Source: Reichenbachiella faecimaris
GTDB lineage: Bacteria > Bacteroidota > Bacteroidia > Cytophagales > Cyclobacteriaceae
Length of the DNA stretch: 64,000 bases
Assembly (NCBI RefSeq): GCF_900176375.1
Contig: NZ_FWYF01000001.1
Span: forward strand, 496,001-560,000
Direction of reading: 5' to 3'
The translations under genes and the position numbers were made by a program. The notes beneath the pieces were generated by a model. It was not told where the DNA came from, searched no databases, and worked only from the letters and a program-made list of their open reading frames with translations. Position 1 is the stretch's first letter, and every line of letters starts with the position of its first letter. Positions 22,847-52,583 of the stretch are shown here, in pieces.

Positions 22847-22915
22847 ATTGAAAGTTTTTAATTTGAAATTAATATTCCCTATTTAAAAATTGGAATTTGG
22901 AATTTAAGATTTGAG
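22847..22915. repeat. ATTTGnn heptamer-word repeat without a gene
   Basis: In register are ATTTGAA (22861), ATTAATA (22868), then ATTGGA (22889), ATTTGGA (22895), ATTTAAG (22902) and ATTTGAG (22909), with an AT-rich spacer between. The words resemble those flanking the decayed four-helix-bundle gene at 44579-44753. The repeat ends just before the der coding region and contains the spurious TTG start at 22911. Confidence 0.6.
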
Positions 22916-43715: not shown

Positions 43716-43750
43716 GCCAAACACTTGAAACCAAACACAAAGACACAAAA
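43716..43750. repeat. Word repeat between paaD and paaG
   Basis: Read on the minus strand this is GTGTCTTT-GTGTTTGG-TTTCA-AGTGTTTGGC, the same AGTGTTTGG words that flank the four-helix-bundle gene at 51403-51738. There is no gene and only one arm. It fills the whole gap between paaD and the next ATG. Confidence 0.5.
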
Positions 43751-44530
43751 ATGACCCATACCCTACAACACGAAATCAAAGACGGCATAGCCATCATCCG
43801 ATTCAATAGACCAGACGTCTTCAACAGCTTCAATCGTGAGATGGCATTGGGATTTCAAGAATTATTGGATCAATGTGGTCAAAATGATAAAGTAAGGGCT
43901 ATCTATCTCACAGGAAATGGTAAGGCATTTTGTGCAGGACAAGATTTAGCGGAAGTTACTGCGTCTGATGCCCCTTTCATTGAAAATATTGTAGCCGAGC
44001 ATTACAATCCTATTGTTCGCAGAATCAGAGAAATAGAAAAGCCAATCATTTGCGCAGTCAATGGTGTGGCAGCAGGTGCTGGGGCCAATCTGGCTTTGGC
44101 TTGCGACATAGTCGTTGCGACTGAAACAGCTTCGTTTATTCAAGCCTTTAGCAAAATTGGCTTGATTCCAGACAGTGGTGGCACGTTTTTTCTACCAAAA
44201 CTTATTGGCTTTCAAAAAGCGAGTGCTCTGATGATGATGGGTGACAAAGTTTCTGCAACGGATGCTGAAAAAATGGGTATGATCTATAAGGTATTCAGTA
44301 CTGAAGAATTTGACGAAGAGTCTATGAAAATCGCTCAGACGATTTCCAAAATGCCAACTTTAGGGTTGGTTTACACCAAAAAATTGCTCAATACTGGTAT
44401 GACAAATAATCTCAAAGAGCAATTGGATCAAGAAGAAATCTATCAATCAAAAGCTGGTAAAACTGTAGACTATAATGAAGGCGTTCAGGCCTTTTTAGAG
44501 AAACGCAAACCTAAGTTTGTAGGGAAATAA
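43751..44530 (+). CDS. paaG: Ring-epoxide isomerase PaaG (crotonase family)
   Basis: This 259-residue crotonase-fold enzyme turns the 1,2-epoxide of phenylacetyl-CoA into the seven-membered oxepin-CoA and can isomerise later intermediates. The oxyanion-hole motifs AFCAGQDL (~60-67) and AVNGVAAGAGANLALACDI match PaaG, and SFIQAFSKIGLIPDSGGTFFLP is more like PaaG than ordinary enoyl-CoA hydratases (a catalytic Asp after IP). It is followed by the decayed four-helix element. Confidence 0.92.
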   Translation: MTHTLQHEIKDGIAIIRFNRPDVFNSFNREMALGFQELLDQCGQNDKVRAIYLTGNGKAFCAGQDLAEVTASDAPFIENIVAEHYNPIVRRIREIEKPIICAVNGVAAGAGANLALACDIVVATETASFIQAFSKIGLIPDSGGTFFLPKLIGFQKASALMMMGDKVSATDAEKMGMIYKVFSTEEFDEESMKIAQTISKMPTLGLVYTKKLLNTGMTNNLKEQLDQEEIYQSKAGKTVDYNEGVQAFLEKRKPKFVGK

Positions 44531-44578
44531 ACGAAATAGCAAATTTCAAAAAAAACAAATAACAAATCGTACCTACCA
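44531..44578. repeat. Left flank of the decayed four-helix-bundle element
   Basis: Read on the minus strand it contains ATTTGTT-ATTTGTT-TTTTTTGAA-ATTTGC. These ATTTG words reappear on the plus strand in the right flank (44754-44807), making an imperfect inverted repeat around the pseudogene. Confidence 0.6.
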
Positions 44579-44753
44579 ATGACTAACCAAAAAAAAATAT
44601 GACCTTGAAGATCGAATTTATGAATTTGAAAAACAGGTGAGATTATTAATGGAAACTAACGAATCGCAAAATGTGGACTAAGTAAAATTATTGCTTCAAG
44701 AAGCTACAGAGTTGAAAAAGGTATTATCAGCAATGATAGAAAAATCAAAATAA
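44579..44753 (+). pseudogene. Remnant of a four-helix-bundle (23S rRNA intervening-sequence protein family) gene
   Basis: The ATG at 44579 reads MTNQK and meets TGA through an extra A in an A9 run. With A8 the frame continues as YDLEDRIYEFEKQVRLLM, the N-terminal block of the larger four-helix-bundle family. It then reaches a stop at 44679-44681. The same frame goes on with LLLQEATELKKVLSAMIEKSK and a stop at 44751-44753, which is the family C-terminus. About 60 central codons are missing. Thus a frameshift, an internal deletion and an in-frame stop are present. The protein family is the one encoded in 23S rRNA intervening sequences and related to the bacterial Avd fold. Confidence 0.75.
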
Positions 44754-44807
44754 GTTGTTTGTAACCCCTTATAATTTGTCTTTTGAATATTGGAATTTGA
44801 AAAAGGT
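44754..44807. repeat. Right flank of the decayed four-helix-bundle element
   Basis: AATTTGTC-TTTTGAAT-ATTGGA-ATTTGA words lie on the plus strand directly before the paaH start codon, mirroring the left flank at 44531-44578. A TTG at 44790 within it is not a real start. Confidence 0.6.
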
Positions 44808-45965
44808 ATGAAAGTAATAGGAATCATCGGCGCGGGGTCAATGGGAAGTGGGATAGCTCAAGTGGCTGCCACTGCTGGACATGAAGTCATATTGTTGGAT
44901 AGCAGCAAACCCATGCTGCAAAAGGCAGAACAAGGCCTTAAAAAGATATTAGATCGTTTAGTCGAAAAAGACAAATTGACTAAGAACGAAGCTGGATCTA
45001 TTTTGGATCGAATTCAATTCACAGATCAACTACAAGAATTTGATCCGTGCGAGTTAATCATAGAAGCCATCATTGAAGATTTGAATATCAAAAAACAGAT
45101 ATTCAGAGAACTCGAAAGTATAGTAAGTAAAAACTGCATCATAGCTACCAATACCTCGTCTCTATCTGTTTCAGCCATAGCAAGTGCATGCGACTATCCA
45201 CAAAGGGTCCTGGGTATACATTTTTTCAATCCTGCTCCCTTGATGCCCTTGGTAGAAATCATTCCAGCGATACAAACCAATGAATCCATACTTTCAGAAG
45301 CTAAAAAAACCATCTCAAGTTGGGGTAAGATTACAGTACAAGCCAAAGACACGCCAGGCTTCATTGTTAATCGCGTAGCTCGACCATTTTATGGTGAAGC
45401 ATTAAGAGTATTGGAAGAAGGTATTGCAGATGTAGCAACCATAGACTGGGCCATGACAGAAATAGGTGGTTTTCGAATGGGTCCCTTTACGTTGATGGAT
45501 TTTATCGGAAATGACATTAACTACACTGTCACTGAAACTGTTTTTAAATCCTTCTTTTACGACCCAAGGTACAAACCGGCCTTCACTCAGAAAAGGTTGG
45601 CAGAAGCTGGTTATCTGGGTAGAAAATCTGGAAAGGGTTATTACGATTATTCGGAAGGTGCCACAAAACCCGAACCTTATTTTGACAAAGCACTGGGTAA
45701 TCAAATCTTCAACAGAATTTTGGTCATGTTGATCAATGAAGCAGCTGACGCCCTATTCTGGGACATTGCCAGCAAAGAAGATATTGATTTGGCTATGACC
45801 AAAGGAGTAAACTACCCTGCTGGTTTGCTACGCTGGGCTGATGAATTTGGGATTGACAATTGTGTAAAGCAAATGGATCAATTATATGATGAGTATCTGG
45901 AAGATAGATATAGGTGTAGTCCCCTGCTTCGTAGAATGGTCAGAGACAAAAAAACATTTTATTAA
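44808..45965 (+). CDS. paaH: 3-hydroxyacyl-CoA dehydrogenase (3-hydroxyadipyl-CoA dehydrogenase)
   Basis: This protein of about 385 residues oxidises 3-hydroxyadipyl-CoA to 3-oxoadipyl-CoA with NAD+. It has an N-terminal Rossmann domain (VIGIIGAGSMGSGIAQVAA), a catalytic block with IHFFNPAPLMPLVEI and the ETV/GFIVNRVARPF helix, and two C-terminal 3HCDH segments. I use ATG 44808; an upstream TTG at 44790 lies in a repeat. The stop shares one base with the paaI start (TAATG), so the two are translationally coupled. Confidence 0.94.
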   Translation: MKVIGIIGAGSMGSGIAQVAATAGHEVILLDSSKPMLQKAEQGLKKILDRLVEKDKLTKNEAGSILDRIQFTDQLQEFDPCELIIEAIIEDLNIKKQIFRELESIVSKNCIIATNTSSLSVSAIASACDYPQRVLGIHFFNPAPLMPLVEIIPAIQTNESILSEAKKTISSWGKITVQAKDTPGFIVNRVARPFYGEALRVLEEGIADVATIDWAMTEIGGFRMGPFTLMDFIGNDINYTVTETVFKSFFYDPRYKPAFTQKRLAEAGYLGRKSGKGYYDYSEGATKPEPYFDKALGNQIFNRILVMLINEAADALFWDIASKEDIDLAMTKGVNYPAGLLRWADEFGIDNCVKQMDQLYDEYLEDRYRCSPLLRRMVRDKKTFY

Positions 45966-46381
45966 TGATGACGCCAAAAGCCATAGTGGATCAGATGTAT
46001 GCCCAGGATACCTTTAGTCAATGGCTAGGTATAACTGTGGAATCAGTAGAACAAGGATATGCTAAAATAAGTATGACAGTAAAGAGTGACATGCTCAATG
46101 GCTTTGGCATTGCCCATGGTGGCATTACCTATTCTTTGGCTGATAGCGCTTTTGCATTTGCTTCCAATTCACAAGGTAGGCATGCAGTATCTATTGAGAC
46201 GTCCATATCTCATACAAAAGCAGTCAACGAAGCAGATAAATTAACGGCCATTGCCAAAGAAGATCATCTGGCCAATCGGTTAGGCATTTATACTATTACC
46301 GTCACCAATCAAGACGAGGAAGTAGTCGCATTATTTAAAGGAACAGTATTTAGAAAAGACGCGCTTTGGAGCGAAAAATAA
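45965..46381 (+). CDS. paaI: Hotdog thioesterase PaaI
   Basis: This 138-residue hotdog-fold thioesterase has the NGFGIAHGGITYSLADSAFAFASNS motif of PaaI (Asp in the catalytic helix). PaaI hydrolyses ring-hydroxylated phenylacetyl-CoA esters and is thought to release CoA from dead-end products. It overlaps the paaH stop by one base and lies 1 nt from the thiolase gene. Confidence 0.94.
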   Translation: MMTPKAIVDQMYAQDTFSQWLGITVESVEQGYAKISMTVKSDMLNGFGIAHGGITYSLADSAFAFASNSQGRHAVSIETSISHTKAVNEADKLTAIAKEDHLANRLGIYTITVTNQDEEVVALFKGTVFRKDALWSEK

Positions 46382-46382
46382 T

Positions 46383-47588
46383 ATGAAAGAAGCTTATATC
46401 ATAGATGGAGTAAGAACACCAATAGGCAAATTTGGAGGCACATTGAGTCCCGTTAGAACGGACGACTTAGCAGCACATGCAATCAGAGCATTGATAAGTA
46501 GAAATCAATCGCTCGATCCTGCACTAATTGACGATTGTATTTTAGGCTGTGCGAATCAAGCTGGAGAAGACAATAGAAATGTGGCTCGTATGGCTGCGCT
46601 CTTGGCTGGCCTTCCCTATTCAGTTCCAGGCGAAACTGTCAATCGACTTTGTTCATCAGGACTCTCATCAATCATCCAAGCCAATCGAGCCATCAAAACA
46701 GGTGATGGTGATCTATTTATTTCTGGTGGTGTTGAACACATGACGCGTAGCCCTTTGGTCATAGCCAAATCAGCTAAGCCTTTTGGAACTGATGCTCAAA
46801 TGTTCGACTCAAGTTTTGGGTGGAGATTTGTCAATCCGAAAATGCATGACCACTATGGCACTGACGCCATGGGGATGACTGCAGAAAATTTGGTTGAAAA
46901 GTTTGGTATAAGCAGGAGGGATCAAGATGCATTTGCTTTTCGATCTCAACAAAAAGCTGCTGTCGCTCTGTCTTCTGGTAGACTCGCCAAAGAAATAGTT
47001 CCTGTTTCCATTCCTCAAAGGAAAAAGGATCCTATTATATTTTCAGACGATGAGTTTATCAAAGGCAATACCACACTGGAAGCACTGGCAGGCTTGAGAC
47101 CAGCATTCAAAAAAGATGGTTCCGTCACTGCAGGCAACGCTTCAGGTCTAAACGATGGCGCCGCAGCAGTTTTAGTAGCCTCTGAGGATGCCGTGAAGAA
47201 TTACAAGTTAAAACCAATGGCGAGAATTGTTTCATCAGCGGTTGTTGGGGTTGAACCAAGAATCATGGGTATTGGACCTGTAAAGGCTTCTTTGAAGGCA
47301 TTAGAGAAAGCTGGTTTGACAATGGCAGATATGGACGTGATAGAATTGAATGAAGCATTTGCAGCACAGAGCTTAGCATGCACTCGTGAATGGGGATTGG
47401 CAGATGATGACGCCAGAGTCAACCCAAACGGAGGCGCCATTGCCATCGGACATCCACTAGGAATGACTGGCGCACGAATAGCCTATTCTGCAGCTTTAGA
47501 GTTGAATTTGACAAATAAAAAATACGCACTCGTGACCATGTGTATAGGAGTTGGACAGGGTTACGCGGCAGTTTTCGAAAAGGCATAA
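46383..47588 (+). CDS. paaJ: 3-oxoadipyl-CoA/3-oxo-5,6-dehydrosuberyl-CoA thiolase
   Basis: This 401-residue thiolase uses Cys90 (VNRLCSSGLSS) as nucleophile; the C-terminal GHPLGMTGAR (His) and CIGVGQG (Cys) complete the site. It splits 3-oxoadipyl-CoA into succinyl-CoA and acetyl-CoA, the last step of the pathway, and likely also the dehydrosuberyl intermediate. The length and NPNGGAIAIGHPLG match the PaaJ/PcaF group. The next gene starts 3 nt later. Confidence 0.95.
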   Translation: MKEAYIIDGVRTPIGKFGGTLSPVRTDDLAAHAIRALISRNQSLDPALIDDCILGCANQAGEDNRNVARMAALLAGLPYSVPGETVNRLCSSGLSSIIQANRAIKTGDGDLFISGGVEHMTRSPLVIAKSAKPFGTDAQMFDSSFGWRFVNPKMHDHYGTDAMGMTAENLVEKFGISRRDQDAFAFRSQQKAAVALSSGRLAKEIVPVSIPQRKKDPIIFSDDEFIKGNTTLEALAGLRPAFKKDGSVTAGNASGLNDGAAAVLVASEDAVKNYKLKPMARIVSSAVVGVEPRIMGIGPVKASLKALEKAGLTMADMDVIELNEAFAAQSLACTREWGLADDDARVNPNGGAIAIGHPLGMTGARIAYSAALELNLTNKKYALVTMCIGVGQGYAAVFEKA

Positions 47589-47591
47589 ATC

Positions 47592-48212
47592 ATGGCAAAA
47601 CCAAAGGTAAATCCAGATGCAACCAAAAAGATTGATGCCTATCTGGCAACAGTCTCAGAGGAACAACGTCCAATTTTAGACCTGATTCGAAAGACCGTCA
47701 ATGCCGTAGATGATCGAATTCAGGAAGATTGGAAGTGGAGCGCACCGTGTTTTTACAAGGATGGATTGGTTTGTTGGTTTGTTGGATTCAAATTGCACGT
47801 AGGTCTTAATTTTTATAAGGGTTCATTAATCAAGGATACCTTTAAAGCATTTGTGGAAAGTGAAGATGCAGAGAAAGGCAATCGCATGATTCACTACAAA
47901 ACGCTCCAAGATGTAAATATCAAAGCACTTGAGGACTATGTCAAACAGGCTATTGTTCTCAACGAGAAGAACATCAAAGTTGATTATGTGAGAAAGAAGG
48001 AGTTGGAAACACCCGACTATTTTGAAAAAGCTCTGAATAATAACTCTGCAGCCAAAACTGTATTTGAAAATTTTACAGAAGCCCAGCGTAGAGACTACAT
48101 AGAATGGTTGGTTGAGGCCAAGAGAGAGGCAACCAGAGATAAAAGAATGGCTCAGGCGATCGAATGGATTGCTGAAGGCAAAACAAGAAATTGGAAATAT
48201 ATGAATTGTTGA
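47592..48212 (+). CDS. YdeI/DUF1801-like protein
   Basis: This 206-residue soluble protein combines a DUF1801-type N-terminal domain (DAYLATVSEEQRPILDLIRKTVNAVD, ~12-37, and the DWKWSAPCFYKDGLVCWFVGFKLHVGLNF core) with a C-terminal helical OmdA/YdeI-like part ending EAKREATRDKRMAQAIEWIAEGKTRNWKY. The function is unknown; some relatives bind metals or antimicrobial peptides. Why it is embedded in the paa operon (3 nt after paaJ) is unclear. A heptamer-word repeat follows the stop. Confidence 0.85.
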   Translation: MAKPKVNPDATKKIDAYLATVSEEQRPILDLIRKTVNAVDDRIQEDWKWSAPCFYKDGLVCWFVGFKLHVGLNFYKGSLIKDTFKAFVESEDAEKGNRMIHYKTLQDVNIKALEDYVKQAIVLNEKNIKVDYVRKKELETPDYFEKALNNNSAAKTVFENFTEAQRRDYIEWLVEAKREATRDKRMAQAIEWIAEGKTRNWKYMNC

Positions 48213-48280
48213 ATTAGTCAATAGTCCATAGTTGACCAACAATACTAACCGACCATGGACTATCGACCATTGACCAGAAC
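48213..48280. repeat. Heptamer-word inverted repeat without a gene
   Basis: The left arm (48216-48237) reads AGTCAAT-AGTCCAT-AGTTGAC-C. The right arm (48251-48275) read on the minus strand is GGTCAAT-GGTCGAT-AGTCCAT-GGTC. Both are built from RGTCnAT-type 7-nt words and pair imperfectly with a ~13-nt gap. It begins right after one stop codon and ends just before the GTG start of paaY. Confidence 0.75.
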
Positions 48281-48283
48281 AAA

Positions 48284-48877
48284 GTGATATTTGAATTCAA
48301 AGGACTAAAACCCGTGATTGACCCGAGTGCCTATGTGCACCCACAGGCTACTGTGACTGGAAACGTGTTCATTGGCAAGGATGTGTACATTGGGCCATCT
48401 GCAGCCATCCGTGGAGACTGGGGAAAAATTGTGATAGAAAATGGGTGCAACGTTCAGGAGAATTGCACCATACACATGTTTCCAGGAACTACTGTTTACT
48501 TACGCAAGGGAGCTCATATTGGACATGGAGCCATCATTCATGGTGCTGAAGTGGGCGAAAATTCATTGATCGGCATGAATGCCGTTTTGATGGATAATGC
48601 CGTGATTGGCAAAGAATGTATTGTTGGTGCTTTGGCGTTTGTAAAAGGTGAAATGCAGATTCCAGACAGAAGCCTAGTGGCGGGGAATCCAGCTAAAATC
48701 ATCAAAGAAGTTTCGGATGAGATAATTGCCTGGAAGACAGAAGGCACTCGACTTTATCAAGAATTGCCAAAGAACTGTATGGATACTCTGATTCCCTGTG
48801 AACCATTAACAGAAGCCGAACCGAATAGACCTGAACAGATTGTAAATTTTAAGACTTGGAAGAAATCGAAGAATTAA
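48284..48877 (+). CDS. paaY: PaaY, hexapeptide-repeat thioesterase/carbonic anhydrase-like protein
   Basis: This 197-residue protein is a left-handed beta-helix made of hexapeptide repeats (VTGNVFIGKDVYIG, VIGKECIVGA and so on). Metal-binding histidines lie in CTIHMFPG, GAHIGHGAIIHGAEVG. PaaY helps remove blocking CoA thioesters in the phenylacetate pathway and is related to gamma-carbonic anhydrases. The start is GTG 48284; no ATG exists nearby. It is followed immediately by the word repeats of a four-helix-bundle gene. Confidence 0.9.
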   Translation: MIFEFKGLKPVIDPSAYVHPQATVTGNVFIGKDVYIGPSAAIRGDWGKIVIENGCNVQENCTIHMFPGTTVYLRKGAHIGHGAIIHGAEVGENSLIGMNAVLMDNAVIGKECIVGALAFVKGEMQIPDRSLVAGNPAKIIKEVSDEIIAWKTEGTRLYQELPKNCMDTLIPCEPLTEAEPNRPEQIVNFKTWKKSKN

Positions 48878-48902
48878 GTTATTAGTTAATTAGTCATTAA
48901 GG
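48877..48902. repeat. Left flank of four-helix-bundle element at 48904
   Basis: AGTTATT-AGTTAATT-AGTCATT-AAGG, starting on the last base of the paaY stop codon. The words are echoed on the opposite strand in the right flank (49267-49324). Confidence 0.65.
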
Positions 48903-48903
48903 C

Positions 48904-49266
48904 ATGTTGCAACTAGAAGAATTAGAGGTTTGGAGAAAAGGAAGGGAATTTAGAAATGAAATCTCTGCTTTGTGCAAGATATTTCCCAATGAAGAAAAAT
49001 ATAAATTAATTGATCAAATGATAAGAGCTTCAAGATTTATAACCGCCAATGTCGCAGAAGGATATGGAAGGTTTCATTATCAAGAAAATATTCAATATTG
49101 TCGTCAGGCAAGAGGGTCTATTACTGAAATGTATGATCATTTGACGGTTGCTTTAGATGAAGCCTATATAAATGAAGAGCAGTTCAGTAGATATGATTTA
49201 GACATAAAACATCTTCTCAAACTAATTAATGGATACATCGCTCACTTAAAGAAAAAGAAAGGTTAA
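48904..49266 (+). CDS. Four-helix-bundle protein (23S rRNA intervening-sequence protein family)
   Basis: This complete 120-residue member of the S23/IVP four-helix-bundle family has LEELEVWRKGREFRNEISA, then KLIDQMIRASRFITANVAEGYGR and a C-terminal ARGSITEMYDHLTVALDEA block, all diagnostic (TIGR02436). Such proteins occur in 23S rRNA intervening sequences and share the fold of Avd, the accessory protein of diversity-generating retroelements; their function is unknown. It stands between paaY and paaZ, unrelated in role, and is enclosed by word-based inverted repeats. It is probably intact and translated. Confidence 0.9.
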   Translation: MLQLEELEVWRKGREFRNEISALCKIFPNEEKYKLIDQMIRASRFITANVAEGYGRFHYQENIQYCRQARGSITEMYDHLTVALDEAYINEEQFSRYDLDIKHLLKLINGYIAHLKKKKG

Positions 49267-49324
49267 ATATTAATCAAGTGACTCAACTTACTTATTAACT
49301 AAATAACCTTATAACTCAATCACT
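49267..49324. repeat. Right flank of four-helix-bundle element at 48904
   Basis: On the minus strand it gives AGTGATTG-AGTTATA-AGGTTATTT-AGTTAATA-AGTA-AGTTG-AGTCACTTG. Its AGTTA words pair with the left flank at 48877-48902. It ends directly before the paaZ start codon at 49327. Confidence 0.6.
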
Positions 49325-49326
49325 TA

Positions 49327-51372
49327 ATGAACCCACAAAAAATACAACATTACACCCAGGGACAATGGACTACAGGAAGCGGAGATGGAGAAGTCCTTCA
49401 CCACGCTATTACTGGTGAGCCAATATTCACCCACTCCATCAAAGGTCTGGATTTTAAAGACATCCTTGAATATGGTCGTACAGTAGGCAACCCTGCTTTG
49501 CGTAAAATGACCTTCCAAGAAAGAGGCTTGATGCTCAAAGCACTAGCCATGCATCTACATTCCAAAAAGGAAATGTTTTATGAGCTTAGTAAAGCTACTG
49601 GAGCCACCAGAGTGGATTCTTGGATCGATATTGAAGGAGGTATTGGCAACTTATTTGCCTATGCCAGTCTAAGAAGGCAATTTCCAAATGAAGCACATTA
49701 CATTGATGGTGAGACTGCTCCCCTATCCAAAGGTGGTAGCTTCATTGGCCAGCACATCATGGTACCAAAGGAGGGTGTGGCTGTTCACATCAATGCATTC
49801 AACTTCCCAGTTTGGGGCATGTTAGAAAAAGTAGCTGTCAACTGGTTGGCGGGTATGCCTGCTGTCGTGAAGCCAGCCGAACAAACCTGCTTCTTGACGG
49901 AATTGATGGTGAAAGAGATCATTGATTCCAAAATATTACCTGATGGAGCCTTGCAGCTCATTGCAGGTTCCGGGAAAGGAATTTTGGATCATGTAGGTAT
50001 GCAAGATGTGGTGACCTTCACTGGCTCAGCCAAAACTGGCAGAATGCTAAAACAGCACCCTAACTTAGTAGAACATTCCATTCCATTCACGATGGAAGCG
50101 GATTCCTTAAACTCCACAGTCTTAGGTGAAGATGCTGTACCAGGTACTGAAGAGTTTGATTTATTCATCAAAGAAGTCAGAAAAGAAATCACAGTAAAGT
50201 GTGGACAGAAATGCACAGCAATAAGAAGAATTATTGTACCAGAAAGGCTTGTCGAAGACGTACAAATCGCCTTAGGTAAAGCTTTAGCAAAAACTACTAT
50301 TGGTGATCCTGATGTAGAAGGTGTGCGAATGGGTGCATTAATTAACCAAACGCAAGTAGAAATCGTGAAGCAACAAATAGAGTTGCTCAAAAAATCTTCG
50401 GATGTAGTCTATAACAATGAGGATTTTGAGGTTCTTGGAGCTGATAAATCTAAAGGAGCATTCATCTCCCCTATTTTATTGCTCAATAAAGATCCAATGA
50501 ATAATACTGAAGTTCATACTATTGAAGCCTTTGGCCCTGTAAGCACGATACTGCCTTATAAGGATTTAGATGAAGCTATTGCTATATCTAAAAAGGGACT
50601 CGGGTCACTTTGTTCATCTATTGTAACAGCTGATGATAAAATTGCCAAGCAATATGTATTAGGTGCAGCTGCCTATCACGGAAGAATACTGGCTTTGAAT
50701 AAGGACTCTGCTAAGGAAAGTACAGGCCATGGTTCGCCCATGCCATTACTTACGCATGGCGGACCTGGCCGTGCTGGAGGTGGGGAAGAAATGGGTGGCA
50801 AAAGAGGCGTTATGCACTACATGCAGCGATGTGCAGTGCAAGGTCACCCAACCACCGTTACAGAAATTGCCAATGTGTATCAATATGGAGGCGCTTACAA
50901 GGAAGATATAGCACACCCATTCAGCAAGCACTGGGAAGAATTGGAAATAGGTGAAACATACATCACAGCCAAAAGAACTGTTACAGAAGGTGACATAGTG
51001 AATTTTGCCAATGTAAGTTGGGATCATTTTTACGCACATACAGATGTCACGTCTCTGGATGGCACCATTTTCGAACAGCGTGTAGCACATGGATATTTCA
51101 TCCTTTCAGCTGCAGCTGGACTATTTGTTCAGGCTAAGAAAGGCCCTGTATTACTTAATTATGGGTTAGAAGAATGCAGATTTACCAAGCCTGTATATGC
51201 AGGTACAACCATTGGCGTACGCCTAACTGTGAAAGAAAAAATTGATCAAGAAAAGAAGGACGATATAGCGAAAGGCATCGTGAAATTCTTGGTAGACGTC
51301 TATGACGAAACAGGCGAAACGATTGCTATCGCAACGATTTTAACGATGATTAGGAAAAAGAATCAACAGTAG
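49327..51372 (+). CDS. paaZ: Bifunctional PaaZ: oxepin-CoA hydrolase and aldehyde dehydrogenase
   Basis: This 681-residue fusion has an N-terminal aldehyde dehydrogenase (~1-520, with NFPVWGMLEKVAVNWLAGMPAVVKPAE, catalytic Cys in CGQKCTAIRR, and FGPVSTILPY) and a C-terminal MaoC-like hotdog hydratase (~540-681, NVSWDHFYAHTD). It opens the oxepin ring and oxidises the resulting aldehyde to 3-oxo-5,6-dehydrosuberyl-CoA. Both halves look intact. It is flanked on each side by a four-helix-bundle element, so the mobile-looking DNA brackets but does not interrupt it. Confidence 0.95.
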   Translation: MNPQKIQHYTQGQWTTGSGDGEVLHHAITGEPIFTHSIKGLDFKDILEYGRTVGNPALRKMTFQERGLMLKALAMHLHSKKEMFYELSKATGATRVDSWIDIEGGIGNLFAYASLRRQFPNEAHYIDGETAPLSKGGSFIGQHIMVPKEGVAVHINAFNFPVWGMLEKVAVNWLAGMPAVVKPAEQTCFLTELMVKEIIDSKILPDGALQLIAGSGKGILDHVGMQDVVTFTGSAKTGRMLKQHPNLVEHSIPFTMEADSLNSTVLGEDAVPGTEEFDLFIKEVRKEITVKCGQKCTAIRRIIVPERLVEDVQIALGKALAKTTIGDPDVEGVRMGALINQTQVEIVKQQIELLKKSSDVVYNNEDFEVLGADKSKGAFISPILLLNKDPMNNTEVHTIEAFGPVSTILPYKDLDEAIAISKKGLGSLCSSIVTADDKIAKQYVLGAAAYHGRILALNKDSAKESTGHGSPMPLLTHGGPGRAGGGEEMGGKRGVMHYMQRCAVQGHPTTVTEIANVYQYGGAYKEDIAHPFSKHWEELEIGETYITAKRTVTEGDIVNFANVSWDHFYAHTDVTSLDGTIFEQRVAHGYFILSAAAGLFVQAKKGPVLLNYGLEECRFTKPVYAGTTIGVRLTVKEKIDQEKKDDIAKGIVKFLVDVYDETGETIAIATILTMIRKKNQQ

Positions 51373-51402
51373 TAAACAGTGTTAAGTTTTTAGTGTTTGG
51401 CT
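51371..51402. repeat. Left flank of four-helix-bundle element at 51403
   Basis: Four words in perfect 7-nt register, AGTAAAC-AGTGTTA-AGTTTTT-AGTGTTT-GG, start inside the paaZ stop codon and end just before the ATG at 51403. The right flank at 51774-51812 carries the same words on the other strand. Confidence 0.7.
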
Positions 51403-51738
51403 ATGACTACAGGATTTGTAACACATGAAAATTTAGAAGTTTGGATAGAGGCTAGAAATTTGATTTCAAAGATTTATAGAGCATCTAAAAAATTTCCTAA
51501 AGAAGAAATGTATGAATTGACTAATCAAATTAGACGAGGAGCCATTTCTGTTCCTTCTAACATTGCTGAAGGATCTGGAAGAAACACAACCAAAGACAAA
51601 CTTCAATTCTTTTACATAAGCAGAGGTTCTTTGTTCGAATTGAAAACCCAAATGTTTGTGGCATTGGATTTCAATTTTATTACTGAAAAGGGAAAAAACG
51701 ACTTAAAGTCCACATTGAACTTTGTAAAAAGCTTTTAA
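51403..51738 (+). CDS. Four-helix-bundle protein with frameshifted C-terminus
   Basis: This 111-residue member of the same S23/IVP family begins MTTGFVTHENLEVWIEARN, with YELTNQIRRGAISVPSNIAEGSGR and FFYISRGSLFELKTQ blocks. It stops at TAA 51736-51738 after VKSF. In the next frame the reading continues as LLNGFINYNKSKLS to about 51785, the expected family C-terminus, so one base has been lost near 51730 and helix 4 is truncated. This copy is probably damaged. It lies between paaZ and an enoyl-CoA hydratase. A TTG at 51397 is rejected as start because it lies in the repeat. Confidence 0.85.
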   Translation: MTTGFVTHENLEVWIEARNLISKIYRASKKFPKEEMYELTNQIRRGAISVPSNIAEGSGRNTTKDKLQFFYISRGSLFELKTQMFVALDFNFITEKGKNDLKSTLNFVKSF

Positions 51739-51773
51739 ATGGTTTTATAAACTACAACAAATCAAAACTAAGC

Positions 51774-51812
51774 TCCCAAACATAAAACACTTAAAACCAT
51801 ACACAGCACTTA
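51774..51812. repeat. Right flank of four-helix-bundle element at 51403
   Basis: CCAAACA, AAAACACTTAA and CAGCACTT segments are the complement of the AGTGTTT/AGTTTTT words in the left flank, forming an imperfect inverted repeat of ~25-30 nt around the frameshifted gene. Confidence 0.6.
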
Positions 51813-51827
51813 TTAACAACAAAAAAA

Positions 51828-52583
51828 ATGAACGGAAGCGTAAACATAGAAATCAACAAAGGCATAGGTACCATCACCTTTTTCCACCCTCAAAGCAACT
51901 CTTTGCCAGGAGAGATTTTGAACCTTTTGGCTCAAACAATTTCTGAAGCAGGGACGAACGAAGCAATTAAAGTCATTGTTCTAAAAAGTGAAGGTGATCG
52001 TGCTTTTTGTGCGGGTGCAAGTTTTGATGAATTGATTTCGATAGATGACTTAGACACCGGAAGGACTTTCTTTTCTGGATTTGCTAACGTGATTAATGCT
52101 GCAAGAAAATGCCCTAAACTGATCATTGGGCGTGTACAAGGCAAGGCAGTTGGTGGTGGTGTAGGACTGGCCAGTGCTGTAGACTACTGCATGGCTACCC
52201 AGTTTGCTTCTGTGAAGCTCAGTGAGTTAGCCATAGGCATTGGCCCATTTGTGGTAGGGCCTGCAGTAGAGCGCAAAATAGGTGTGTCTGCTATGTCCCA
52301 AATGGCGATCAATGCTACTGAATGGCAAACGGCTCAATGGGCTAAGGATAAAGGCCTTTATACAGAGGTATATGATAGCGTACAAGATATGGATGCTGGC
52401 ATTCAGGAATTGGCTGAAAAGCTAGCCGCTTCAAATCCAGAAGCCATGCGCCTACTCAAACAAATATTCTGGGAAGGTACTGAGCACTGGGACGAATTAT
52501 TGGCAGAGCGAGCAGGAATGAGTGGAAAACTGGTACTTTCAGATTTTACTCGAAACGCGATCCATAAATTTAAAAACAAGTAA
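51828..52583 (+). CDS. Enoyl-CoA hydratase/isomerase family protein (PaaF-like)
   Basis: This 251-residue crotonase-fold protein has oxyanion-hole motifs AFCAGASFDEL (~61-71) and VQGKAVGGGVGLASAVDY (~104-121). Position suggests the 2,3-dehydroadipyl-CoA hydratase PaaF, which the cluster otherwise lacks. One glutamate of the usual catalytic pair is visible (LSELAIGIGP); the second position, normally Glu or Asp after IGLxP, reads as glycine/proline-rich FVVGP, so its activity may differ from a typical hydratase. A REP-like hairpin lies after its stop. Confidence 0.82.
   Translation: MNGSVNIEINKGIGTITFFHPQSNSLPGEILNLLAQTISEAGTNEAIKVIVLKSEGDRAFCAGASFDELISIDDLDTGRTFFSGFANVINAARKCPKLIIGRVQGKAVGGGVGLASAVDYCMATQFASVKLSELAIGIGPFVVGPAVERKIGVSAMSQMAINATEWQTAQWAKDKGLYTEVYDSVQDMDAGIQELAEKLAASNPEAMRLLKQIFWEGTEHWDELLAERAGMSGKLVLSDFTRNAIHKFKNK

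Follow-up and report, generated by a model that had tools for sequence, protein, structure and literature searches.

Small S23 gene elements with arms of 7-nt words in bacterial operon gaps: a probable mobile class viewed from the paa operon of Reichenbachiella faecimaris

The window analysed here is a stretch of 64,000 nucleotides from Reichenbachiella faecimaris (Bacteroidota; NCBI RefSeq assembly GCF_900176375.1, contig NZ_FWYF01000001.1, positions 496,001 to 560,000), and our subject is a set of small units found in the gaps of its paa operon, two of which carry an intact gene of the 23S rRNA intervening-sequence protein family (PF05635, hereafter S23). A preliminary description of this DNA had proposed that three loci share one plan, in which an S23 gene lies between imperfect inverted repeats made of short words, and that these units are mobile. 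Having followed the family well beyond the window, we find the best overall explanation, at a probability of roughly 0.6, to be that of small mobile S23 elements with word-built arms, which insert at stop/start junctions.

Results

Two intact elements and a remnant in the paa operon

A Pfam profile search places intact PF05635 genes at 48904-49266 (element 2; E 1.2e-29, 103 bits) and 51403-51738 (element 3; E 6.7e-34, 116.8 bits, the protein being scanned from a TTG at 51397), both above the curated cut-off of 33.8 bits; the element 2 protein also matches TIGR02436 (E 4.1e-26). Both genes sit in gaps that open at a stop codon and close just before the following start, as had been described. 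Judged against 1000 dinucleotide shuffles, their flanks are complementary to one another, with a score of 14 for element 3 (p=0.006) and 11 for element 2 (p=0.045). The words of element 2 are nearer 8 nt apart, and in a scan of the 64 kb its flanks rank among the top windows at lag 8, not lag 7. The features, all on the + strand, are as follows.

44531..44810, + strand: element 1, a decayed remnant in the paaG-paaH gap; absent from the sister species G005 and G003; sub-threshold TIGR02436 match.
48877..48903, + strand: element 2 left arm, of TTAGTTAATTAGT words at about 8-nt spacing; 48882-48894 pairs with 49290-49302.
48904..49266, + strand: element 2 PF05635/TIGR02436 gene, 120 aa, from profile matches; absent from both sister species.
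49267..49326, + strand: element 2 right arm, from the complementarity test, with its own local hairpin in the predicted RNA fold.
51370..51402, + strand: element 3 left arm, beginning at the stop codon of the PaaZ gene; 51379-51400 pairs with 51776-51797.
51403..51738, + strand: element 3 PF05635/TIGR02436 gene, with a possible TTG start at 51397; absent from both sister species.
51739..51827, + strand: element 3 right arm, from the gap map and complementarity test, stopping just before the start codon at 51828.

The shared plan holds for elements 2 and 3 and fails for element 1, which consists of two short open pieces only. The first of these has no Pfam match; the two joined, with an X at the stop, reach TIGR02436 at E 0.012 and 15.8 bits against a cut-off of 24, and neither piece matches any of 172 collected S23 proteins at E 0.05. 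The complementarity of its flanks is no better than that of dinucleotide shuffles (p=0.32). All three loci lie between protein genes of the operon and not within an rRNA gene. By itself, the window is a weak case for the plan.

Inverted arms with a 7-nt period flank most S23 genes

We therefore turn to homologues, whose collection and comparison with shuffled controls the preliminary description had itself proposed. PF05635 loci were drawn from the window's genome (8 matches), its genus, family and phylum, and from named genomes, for which the best 80 of at least 573 relatives were kept. The resulting set of 172 genes, mainly from Bacteroidota, excludes those with less than 200 nt of flank, with a reading frame under 270 nt or identical to one already taken; 22 further congener genes (20 with arms) were added later, giving 194 genes and 162 arm loci. 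Arms were called at a flank complementarity score of at least 12, and stem tests were confined to such loci.

Flanks reach this score in 142 of the 172 genes (82.6%). For control genes of these loci the share is 8.6% (of 93), for shuffled pairs 2.5% (of 516) and for pairs made of flanks from two different loci 15.8% (of 513); mean scores are 16.7 for the S23 genes against 9.1, 8.6 and 9.5, respectively. An S23 reading frame between terminal inverted repeats, as in elements 2 and 3, is thus the rule, and the words differ from locus to locus whilst each pair of flanks shares its own set, much as had been claimed. The period is exactly 7, 14 and 21 nt: the excess of arm self-matches is +0.183, +0.155 and +0.117 at these lags and below zero at those between, and control flanks have no such excess. 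The best lag is 7 or 14 in 125 of the 142 arm loci, and 8 in 13 of them. Because 89 of the 172 loci stem from just three gene gaps, the measures were repeated outside these hot sites, where 61 of 83 loci have arms and unselected 80-nt flanks show a lag-7 excess of +0.086. As a separate observation on the 162 arm loci, the 5' arm is purine-rich in 135 hairpins and not in the remaining 27.

The same anatomy recurs in several phyla. Arms are present at 22 of 31 Chloroflexota loci (lag 7 +0.113; 20 of 145 cross-locus pairs at threshold) and at 8 of 11 loci from two Nitrospirota/Ignavibacteria genomes (lag 7 +0.138; 10 of 51 cross-locus pairs), the genes of L182, L186 and L113 in these sets being also among the 172. 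Plasmid loci, 17 cyanobacterial and one from Gemmatimonadota, have arms in 13 of 18 cases and a lag-7 excess of +0.149 over 17, with words such as AGTAGGG and GGTGTAG; L288, L329 and L331 were not scored, L328 stands outside the lag count, and the arms of L325 and L327 are missed by the measure because the annotated gene runs into the right arm. At E 0.001, PF05635 is matched in 116 of the 148 genomes sampled from the window's phylum and in 48 of the 151 sampled from Chloroflexota, and a single query of phages at E 1e-5 returned no S23 match.

Sites are filled in some genomes and empty in others

The preliminary description had called for sister strains to be compared at paaG-paaH, paaY-paaZ and paaZ-hydratase, and empty sites are indeed found there. 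Of seven congeners, G005 and G003 have a PaaZ gene, encoding proteins 96% and 91% identical, respectively. The DNA alignment with G005 breaks at 44531/44808, 48863/49339 and 51358/51821, and that with G003 within about 20 nt of the same positions, with the flanking genes intact in both; site 1 in G005 is a stop/start overlap, ATGA, and all three sites in G003 are spacers without S23. None of the three window elements is thus present in either species, and one gain per paa site is simpler than two losses, provided that the PaaZ identities are right in pointing to the window's genome and G005 as sisters. Seventeen more distant PaaZ loci, some truncated at the end of a contig, include a single one (L107) where an adjacent gap contains S23, with a word set of its own. 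As an aside, the G005 gaps at sites 2 and 3 (L068) hold other palindrome-like repeats, of the GTCATTGCGAGG... and CGTCACTTCGATGCG... types; operon gaps therefore gather several kinds of repeat.

Other sites in these genomes vary likewise. The gap between fadB and fadA is filled in the window's genome, empty in G003 and G005, and filled in other congeners; at metF it is G005 that carries an element, the window's genome having none. A decayed 3' end and the right arm are what G003 retains at suf, where G005 has a short gap. The metH gap houses an S23 element in the window's genome and, in G003, a gene-less copy with the same type of word; in G005 (L316) it is taken up by an unrelated reading frame resembling queF.

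The cleanest cases of mobility come from cyanobacterial plasmids. At site A, plasmids of Trichormus and Scytonema carry an element, whereas six plasmids of 97.5-97.9% identity match the query in two pieces only, and the two of these that were read out are empty. L327 and L337 carry an element at site B, where L323, L335, L336 and L338 have none; at site C it is L323 that has one, and L327, L337 and L335 lack it. The insertions are bordered by duplications of GTAAT (site A), TTCTA or CTA (site B) and ATG (site C). Moreover, the same element occurs at unrelated sites: that of L327 (0.42 kb, 429-nt query) is 78-81% identical over 410-419 nt to those of L325 and L326/L328, with unmatched surroundings, and L339 is an internally deleted copy that keeps both arms, a 170-nt match covering both element ends. 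The Calothrix plasmid copies L287 and L288 were rejected as a case of transposition, their surroundings being shared.

A fast tree of the 172 proteins, of about 110 residues each, is at odds with one clade per site at two recurrent gaps, for which it needs 28 changes for 45 members (fadB-fadA) and 16 for 29 (fadA-fadE); the nearest S23 relative sits at another site for 21 of 45 fadB-fadA copies and 11 of 29 copies in the gap after fadA. The case for re-filling rests on these counts. The 56% identity between the fad copy of the window's genome (L003) and that of a congener (L053) is no proof of a separate insertion, since other same-site copies in the window's genus span 58-87%; the copy may be either a new insertion or an old one lost twice. 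Paired S23 genes in one operon are mostly not mutual nearest relatives, as local duplicates would be, the pair at L162 being an exception. From the empty sites in sisters, the clean ones in near-identical plasmids and the recurrence of one element at unrelated sites, it is very probable that S23 units are mobile elements, as the preliminary description had supposed.

Gene-less copies also exist. The gap after fadA holds word stretches of 73-79 nt without a gene in L273, L280 and L283, and two candidates lie in the window itself.

48212..48283, + strand: gene-less word hairpin before the gene at 48284 (paaY in the preliminary description); score 12, p=0.001; DNA fold z -2.47.
43716..43738, + strand: candidate fragment of word sequence, in the gap ahead of the gene at 43751; 23 nt, 83% complementary to the element 3 left arm.

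The hairpin is found in G005, with alignment gaps of 7 nt and 4 nt, and is absent from G003. Across 464 kb of the window's genome, a scan at threshold 18 gives 11 lag-7 peaks against 0-2 for five other lags, and at least 4 of the 11 are known S23 arms by sequence. The strongest lag-7 stretch of the window, 22848-22903, is made of AATTTGA words and lies without S23 in the gap before a GTPase-like gene. Of a different kind is a perfect 21-nt inverted repeat, 45785-45805 and 46752-46772, whose halves lie inside two operon genes, 946 nt apart.

Placement at stop and start codons

Over 130 loci, the median distance is 3 nt from the upstream stop to the beginning of the left arm, and 7.5 nt from the end of the right arm to the next start. 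TAG serves as the upstream stop at 68 of the 130 arm loci, compared with 72 of 245 control frames (p=1.8e-5), and in the fadB-fadA gap in 10 of 14 genomes with S23 against 5 of 15 without, as if the first arm word often supplied the upstream stop codon. Most copies are in the sense orientation to both neighbours (153 of 172, with 3 antisense to both, 10 between opposed genes and 6 without a neighbour), and the bias persists away from the hot sites (64 sense, 3 antisense to both); for comparison, adjacent gene pairs in the window's genome are 261 tandem, 59 convergent and 51 divergent. Three cyanobacterial plasmid copies (L289, L292 and L293, the first of which shows no arms at threshold) are antisense to both neighbours; sense orientation is therefore not obligatory.

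Certain gaps recur: counted by downstream cluster, fadB-fadA accounts for 49 of the 172 loci, fadA-next gene for 30 and E2-lpd for 15. S23 genes also occur in plasmid transfer operons and, on cyanobacterial plasmids, at cas loci, where they lie between cas6 and cas4 or between cas10 and cmr3 and have a 7-nt array on either side. L291 and L295 lie in type I-D cas operons and L322 in a type III-B operon; in L291 the arrays on the two sides look like direct, not inverted, copies. This suggests that S23 genes lodge in cas operons, and that the linkage of the intervening-sequence protein (IVP) to CRISPR in surveys may share this cause.

Arm words and the S23 protein

Comparison of arm loci at the same site (at most 120 pairs per identity bin) shows that words are shared at S23 identities of 70% or more and lost as identity drops. 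Cross-locus complementarity falls from 17.8-18.7 to 8.3 (18.7 at S23 identities in the 80s, 8.3 in the 20s), whilst complementarity within a locus stays at 16-20; words thus change and the two arms remain matched. Across different sites, words track the S23 lineage (rho 0.184, the largest of 300 permutations reaching 0.115). The left arms of L326 and L328, whose stretches are 96.9% identical, differ by 14 nt, that is two words; slippage in steps of a word, together with a process that re-matches the arms, fits a turnover of words with matched arms.

The protein itself is under strong purifying selection: the median ratio of nonsynonymous to synonymous change (dN/dS) is 0.086; it was taken over those same-site pairs of at least 70% identity that have a finite dS (64 of 132), and the pairs have sequences in common. 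The S23 protein therefore works. Across 194 proteins several polar residues are near-constant (in element 2 numbering, Q38 100%, R41 97%, Ser at column 45 98%, N49 98%, E52 99% and E75 99%; element 2 itself has F at column 45), a set that, judged from the alignment, would resemble a working site more than a bundle core. Solved relatives by sequence are 2gsc and 2rld. The sole + strand frame of at least 60 aa in each gap is the PF05635 gene, and S23 frames match PF05635, its PRK12275 subfamilies, weak Avd-type relatives and two unrelated sub-threshold families. The distant match of the element 3 protein to Avd, an accessory protein of diversity-generating retroelements (DGRs), stays under the cut-off for NF033474 (E 2.2e-5), with E 0.011 for bAvd PF22296.

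Discussion

That S23 elements form a real and widespread class, that they are mobile and that they are akin in plan to rRNA intervening sequences (IVSs) is, in our view, well supported. Each element is about 0.4-0.5 kb long and has one S23 gene between arms of tandem 7-nt words, the right arm being an inverted copy of the left. How might they move? Insertion would take place at stop/start junctions, frequently inside the stop codon or directly at it, and would duplicate a few nucleotides of the target; the genes on either side would thereby stay whole. Loss of the S23 gene would leave short hairpins resembling miniature inverted-repeat transposable elements (MITEs). Movement probably occurs at the level of DNA rather than RNA. 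The chances are about even that the S23 protein binds the arms, perhaps in folded form, and if so it could act as the mobility factor, cutting and copying falling either to host enzymes or to an unrecognised activity of S23. The words would be altered by slippage of replication in steps of 7 nt, and either hairpin-templated copying or selection for the hairpin would keep the two arms matched.

Several observations weigh against this picture. Thirty of the 172 genes lack arms at threshold, and the sample is biased both towards the best profile matches and towards the three sites that supply 89 of its loci. Losses may account for part of the empty sites, considering the remnant at suf and the filled fad site of other congeners. 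The plasmid duplications vary in length from 3 to 5 nt, that at site B being ambiguous, and the linkage between words and S23 lineage may come from joint transfer rather than binding. At E2-lpd, the tree needs only 2 changes for 15 members, all 15 of which are nearest to copies at the same site; some copies are long stationary, as a useful host gene would be. In 464 kb of the window's genome, none of 22 hairpins scoring at least 14 has a lag-7 excess of 0.12 (the 48212 hairpin scores lower), and the idea that this genome holds many gene-less hairpins was rejected. Lastly, no transposase of the DDE, HUH, serine or tyrosine type by which an insertion sequence is known, and no recombinase, nuclease or reverse transcriptase, was recognised in the + strand frames of the gaps, the - strand not having been searched.

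An alternative, that the element lives at the RNA level, would make it a relative of the rRNA IVS: the transcript of the operon would fold there into a single stem, RNase III would excise it, and RNA would be the route by which the element spreads or is maintained; the preliminary description had leant this way in suggesting excision or processing in mRNA. The gene family and the repeat-gene-repeat plan are indeed common to the IVS in Coxiella 23S rRNA, for which the available part of the source reports RNase III cutting in vitro (PMC4990558), and the strong sense bias (153 of 172 copies, and 64 against 3 outside the hot sites) could mean that operon expression matters. The stems, however, do not behave as selected RNA would. 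Amongst their mismatches, A.C outnumbers G.T, by 179 to 121 over 142 loci (p 0.001, and 0.004 given composition) and by 203 to 144 over 162; the G-U tolerance expected from selection on an RNA stem would yield the opposite, and such selection is therefore not supported. Whilst the RNA of element 3 folds slightly better than its shuffles (z -1.70), that of element 2 folds no better (z +0.82), and the plasmid copies L289, L292 and L293 lie antisense to their neighbours. On these sequence tests, processing in mRNA would appear improbable.

We consider it similarly improbable that S23 and its arms are a domesticated operon module, which regulates or insulates its neighbours, is kept by selection, and comes and goes as a regulator is gained or lost. 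Strong purifying selection on S23, the repeated use of the same gaps (fadB-fadA 49, fadA-next gene 30 and E2-lpd 15 of the 172) and the near-single clade at E2-lpd would all sit well with such a role. A module of this kind would not, however, be expected as one element at unrelated sites, in plasmid transfer and cas operons alike, or as decayed remnants, and 15 of 29 fadB-fadA gaps do without S23, most of these (13) spanning no more than 6-97 nt. Least probable of all, and already disfavoured, is that slippage makes 7-nt arrays in tolerated gaps where S23 genes then lodge by chance: heptamer arrays have been published from Beggiatoaceae, cyanobacteria and xanthomonads with no mention of S23 in the text searched (PMC4679880, PMC4692102), and L326 and L328 do differ by two units, but the arms are inverted copies tied to their locus and are common to copies at different sites.

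Having weighed these alternatives against small mobile elements with word-built arms, we can set the latter beside known systems. MITEs and REPIN/RAYT elements are short, palindromic and intergenic, and have gene-less copies beside gene-bearing ones, a likeness that extends to S23 elements. L339, an internally deleted copy that keeps both ends, has the form of a MITE; S23 elements differ from both kinds in having no recognised transposase gene and in ends that are not conserved across lineages. Likeness to DGRs stops at the distant relationship of Avd to the element 3 protein, as no reverse transcriptase is seen within the element plan. The closest parallel is the Coxiella IVS, which, in the portion of the source available, has a PF05635 frame in terminal inverted repeats, a sporadic spread and a long-suspected mobility, first suggested many years ago (PMC4990558). 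The present elements differ in lying between protein genes and in having arms that are arrays of 7-nt words, varied by locus; and where the same account has the Coxiella protein apparently not made in vivo (PMC4990558), S23 here is under purifying selection. IVP is also reported, in the passages available, from insertions in the 16S and 23S rRNA of candidate phyla radiation (CPR) bacteria (PMC11270868), and 23S rRNA IVP appears among the figure labels of PMC10910872; the accessible parts of PMC3542288 and PMC4853749 add nothing on S23.

Heptamer repeats, for their part, have been described as TAACTGA in Beggiatoaceae, cyanobacteria and Bacteroidetes (PMC4679880), and as GGGAATC in Xanthomonas and GGGGA(C/T)T in Nostoc (PMC4692102). 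As presented in the available text, these are tandem 7-nt units, often between aligned genes or near start and stop codons and sometimes in inverted pairs, and the main texts searched contain neither 's23' nor 'helix bundle' (PMC4679880, PMC4692102), whereas in the present set such arrays form the arms of S23 elements. We infer that the published arrays may be gene-less relatives of the latter. No title or abstract in the literature searched, which leaves most subscription journals outside its coverage, ties S23 genes to heptamer arms, and the same search by title and abstract gave no precedent for word-built arms with junction targeting. The gene and its repeat-gene-repeat plan are thus already known from rRNA IVSs, whilst the word-built arms and the targeting of junctions appear new within the literature searched.

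Could S23 elements be a new class of transposable element? In such a class the four-helix-bundle S23 protein, which has no known catalytic fold, would be the mobility enzyme or the only dedicated factor and would act on DNA hairpins built of 7-nt words; its members or gene-less remains would include rRNA IVSs and the orphan heptamer arrays known from cyanobacteria, Beggiatoaceae and xanthomonads. We put this forward tentatively, and as a reading that is rather less likely to be right than wrong.

To conclude, PF05635 genes are common and without known function, and if they are mobile with word-built arms, a large uncharacterised family would be explained. Where an S23 gene is found in an operon, even one of cas genes, it may be lodged there and play no part in the pathway, a point of caution for annotation. 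If our explanation is true, rRNA IVSs, orphan heptamer arrays and CRISPR-linked IVP genes would become one testable question, and the movement of DNA without a known transposase would be opened to experiment.

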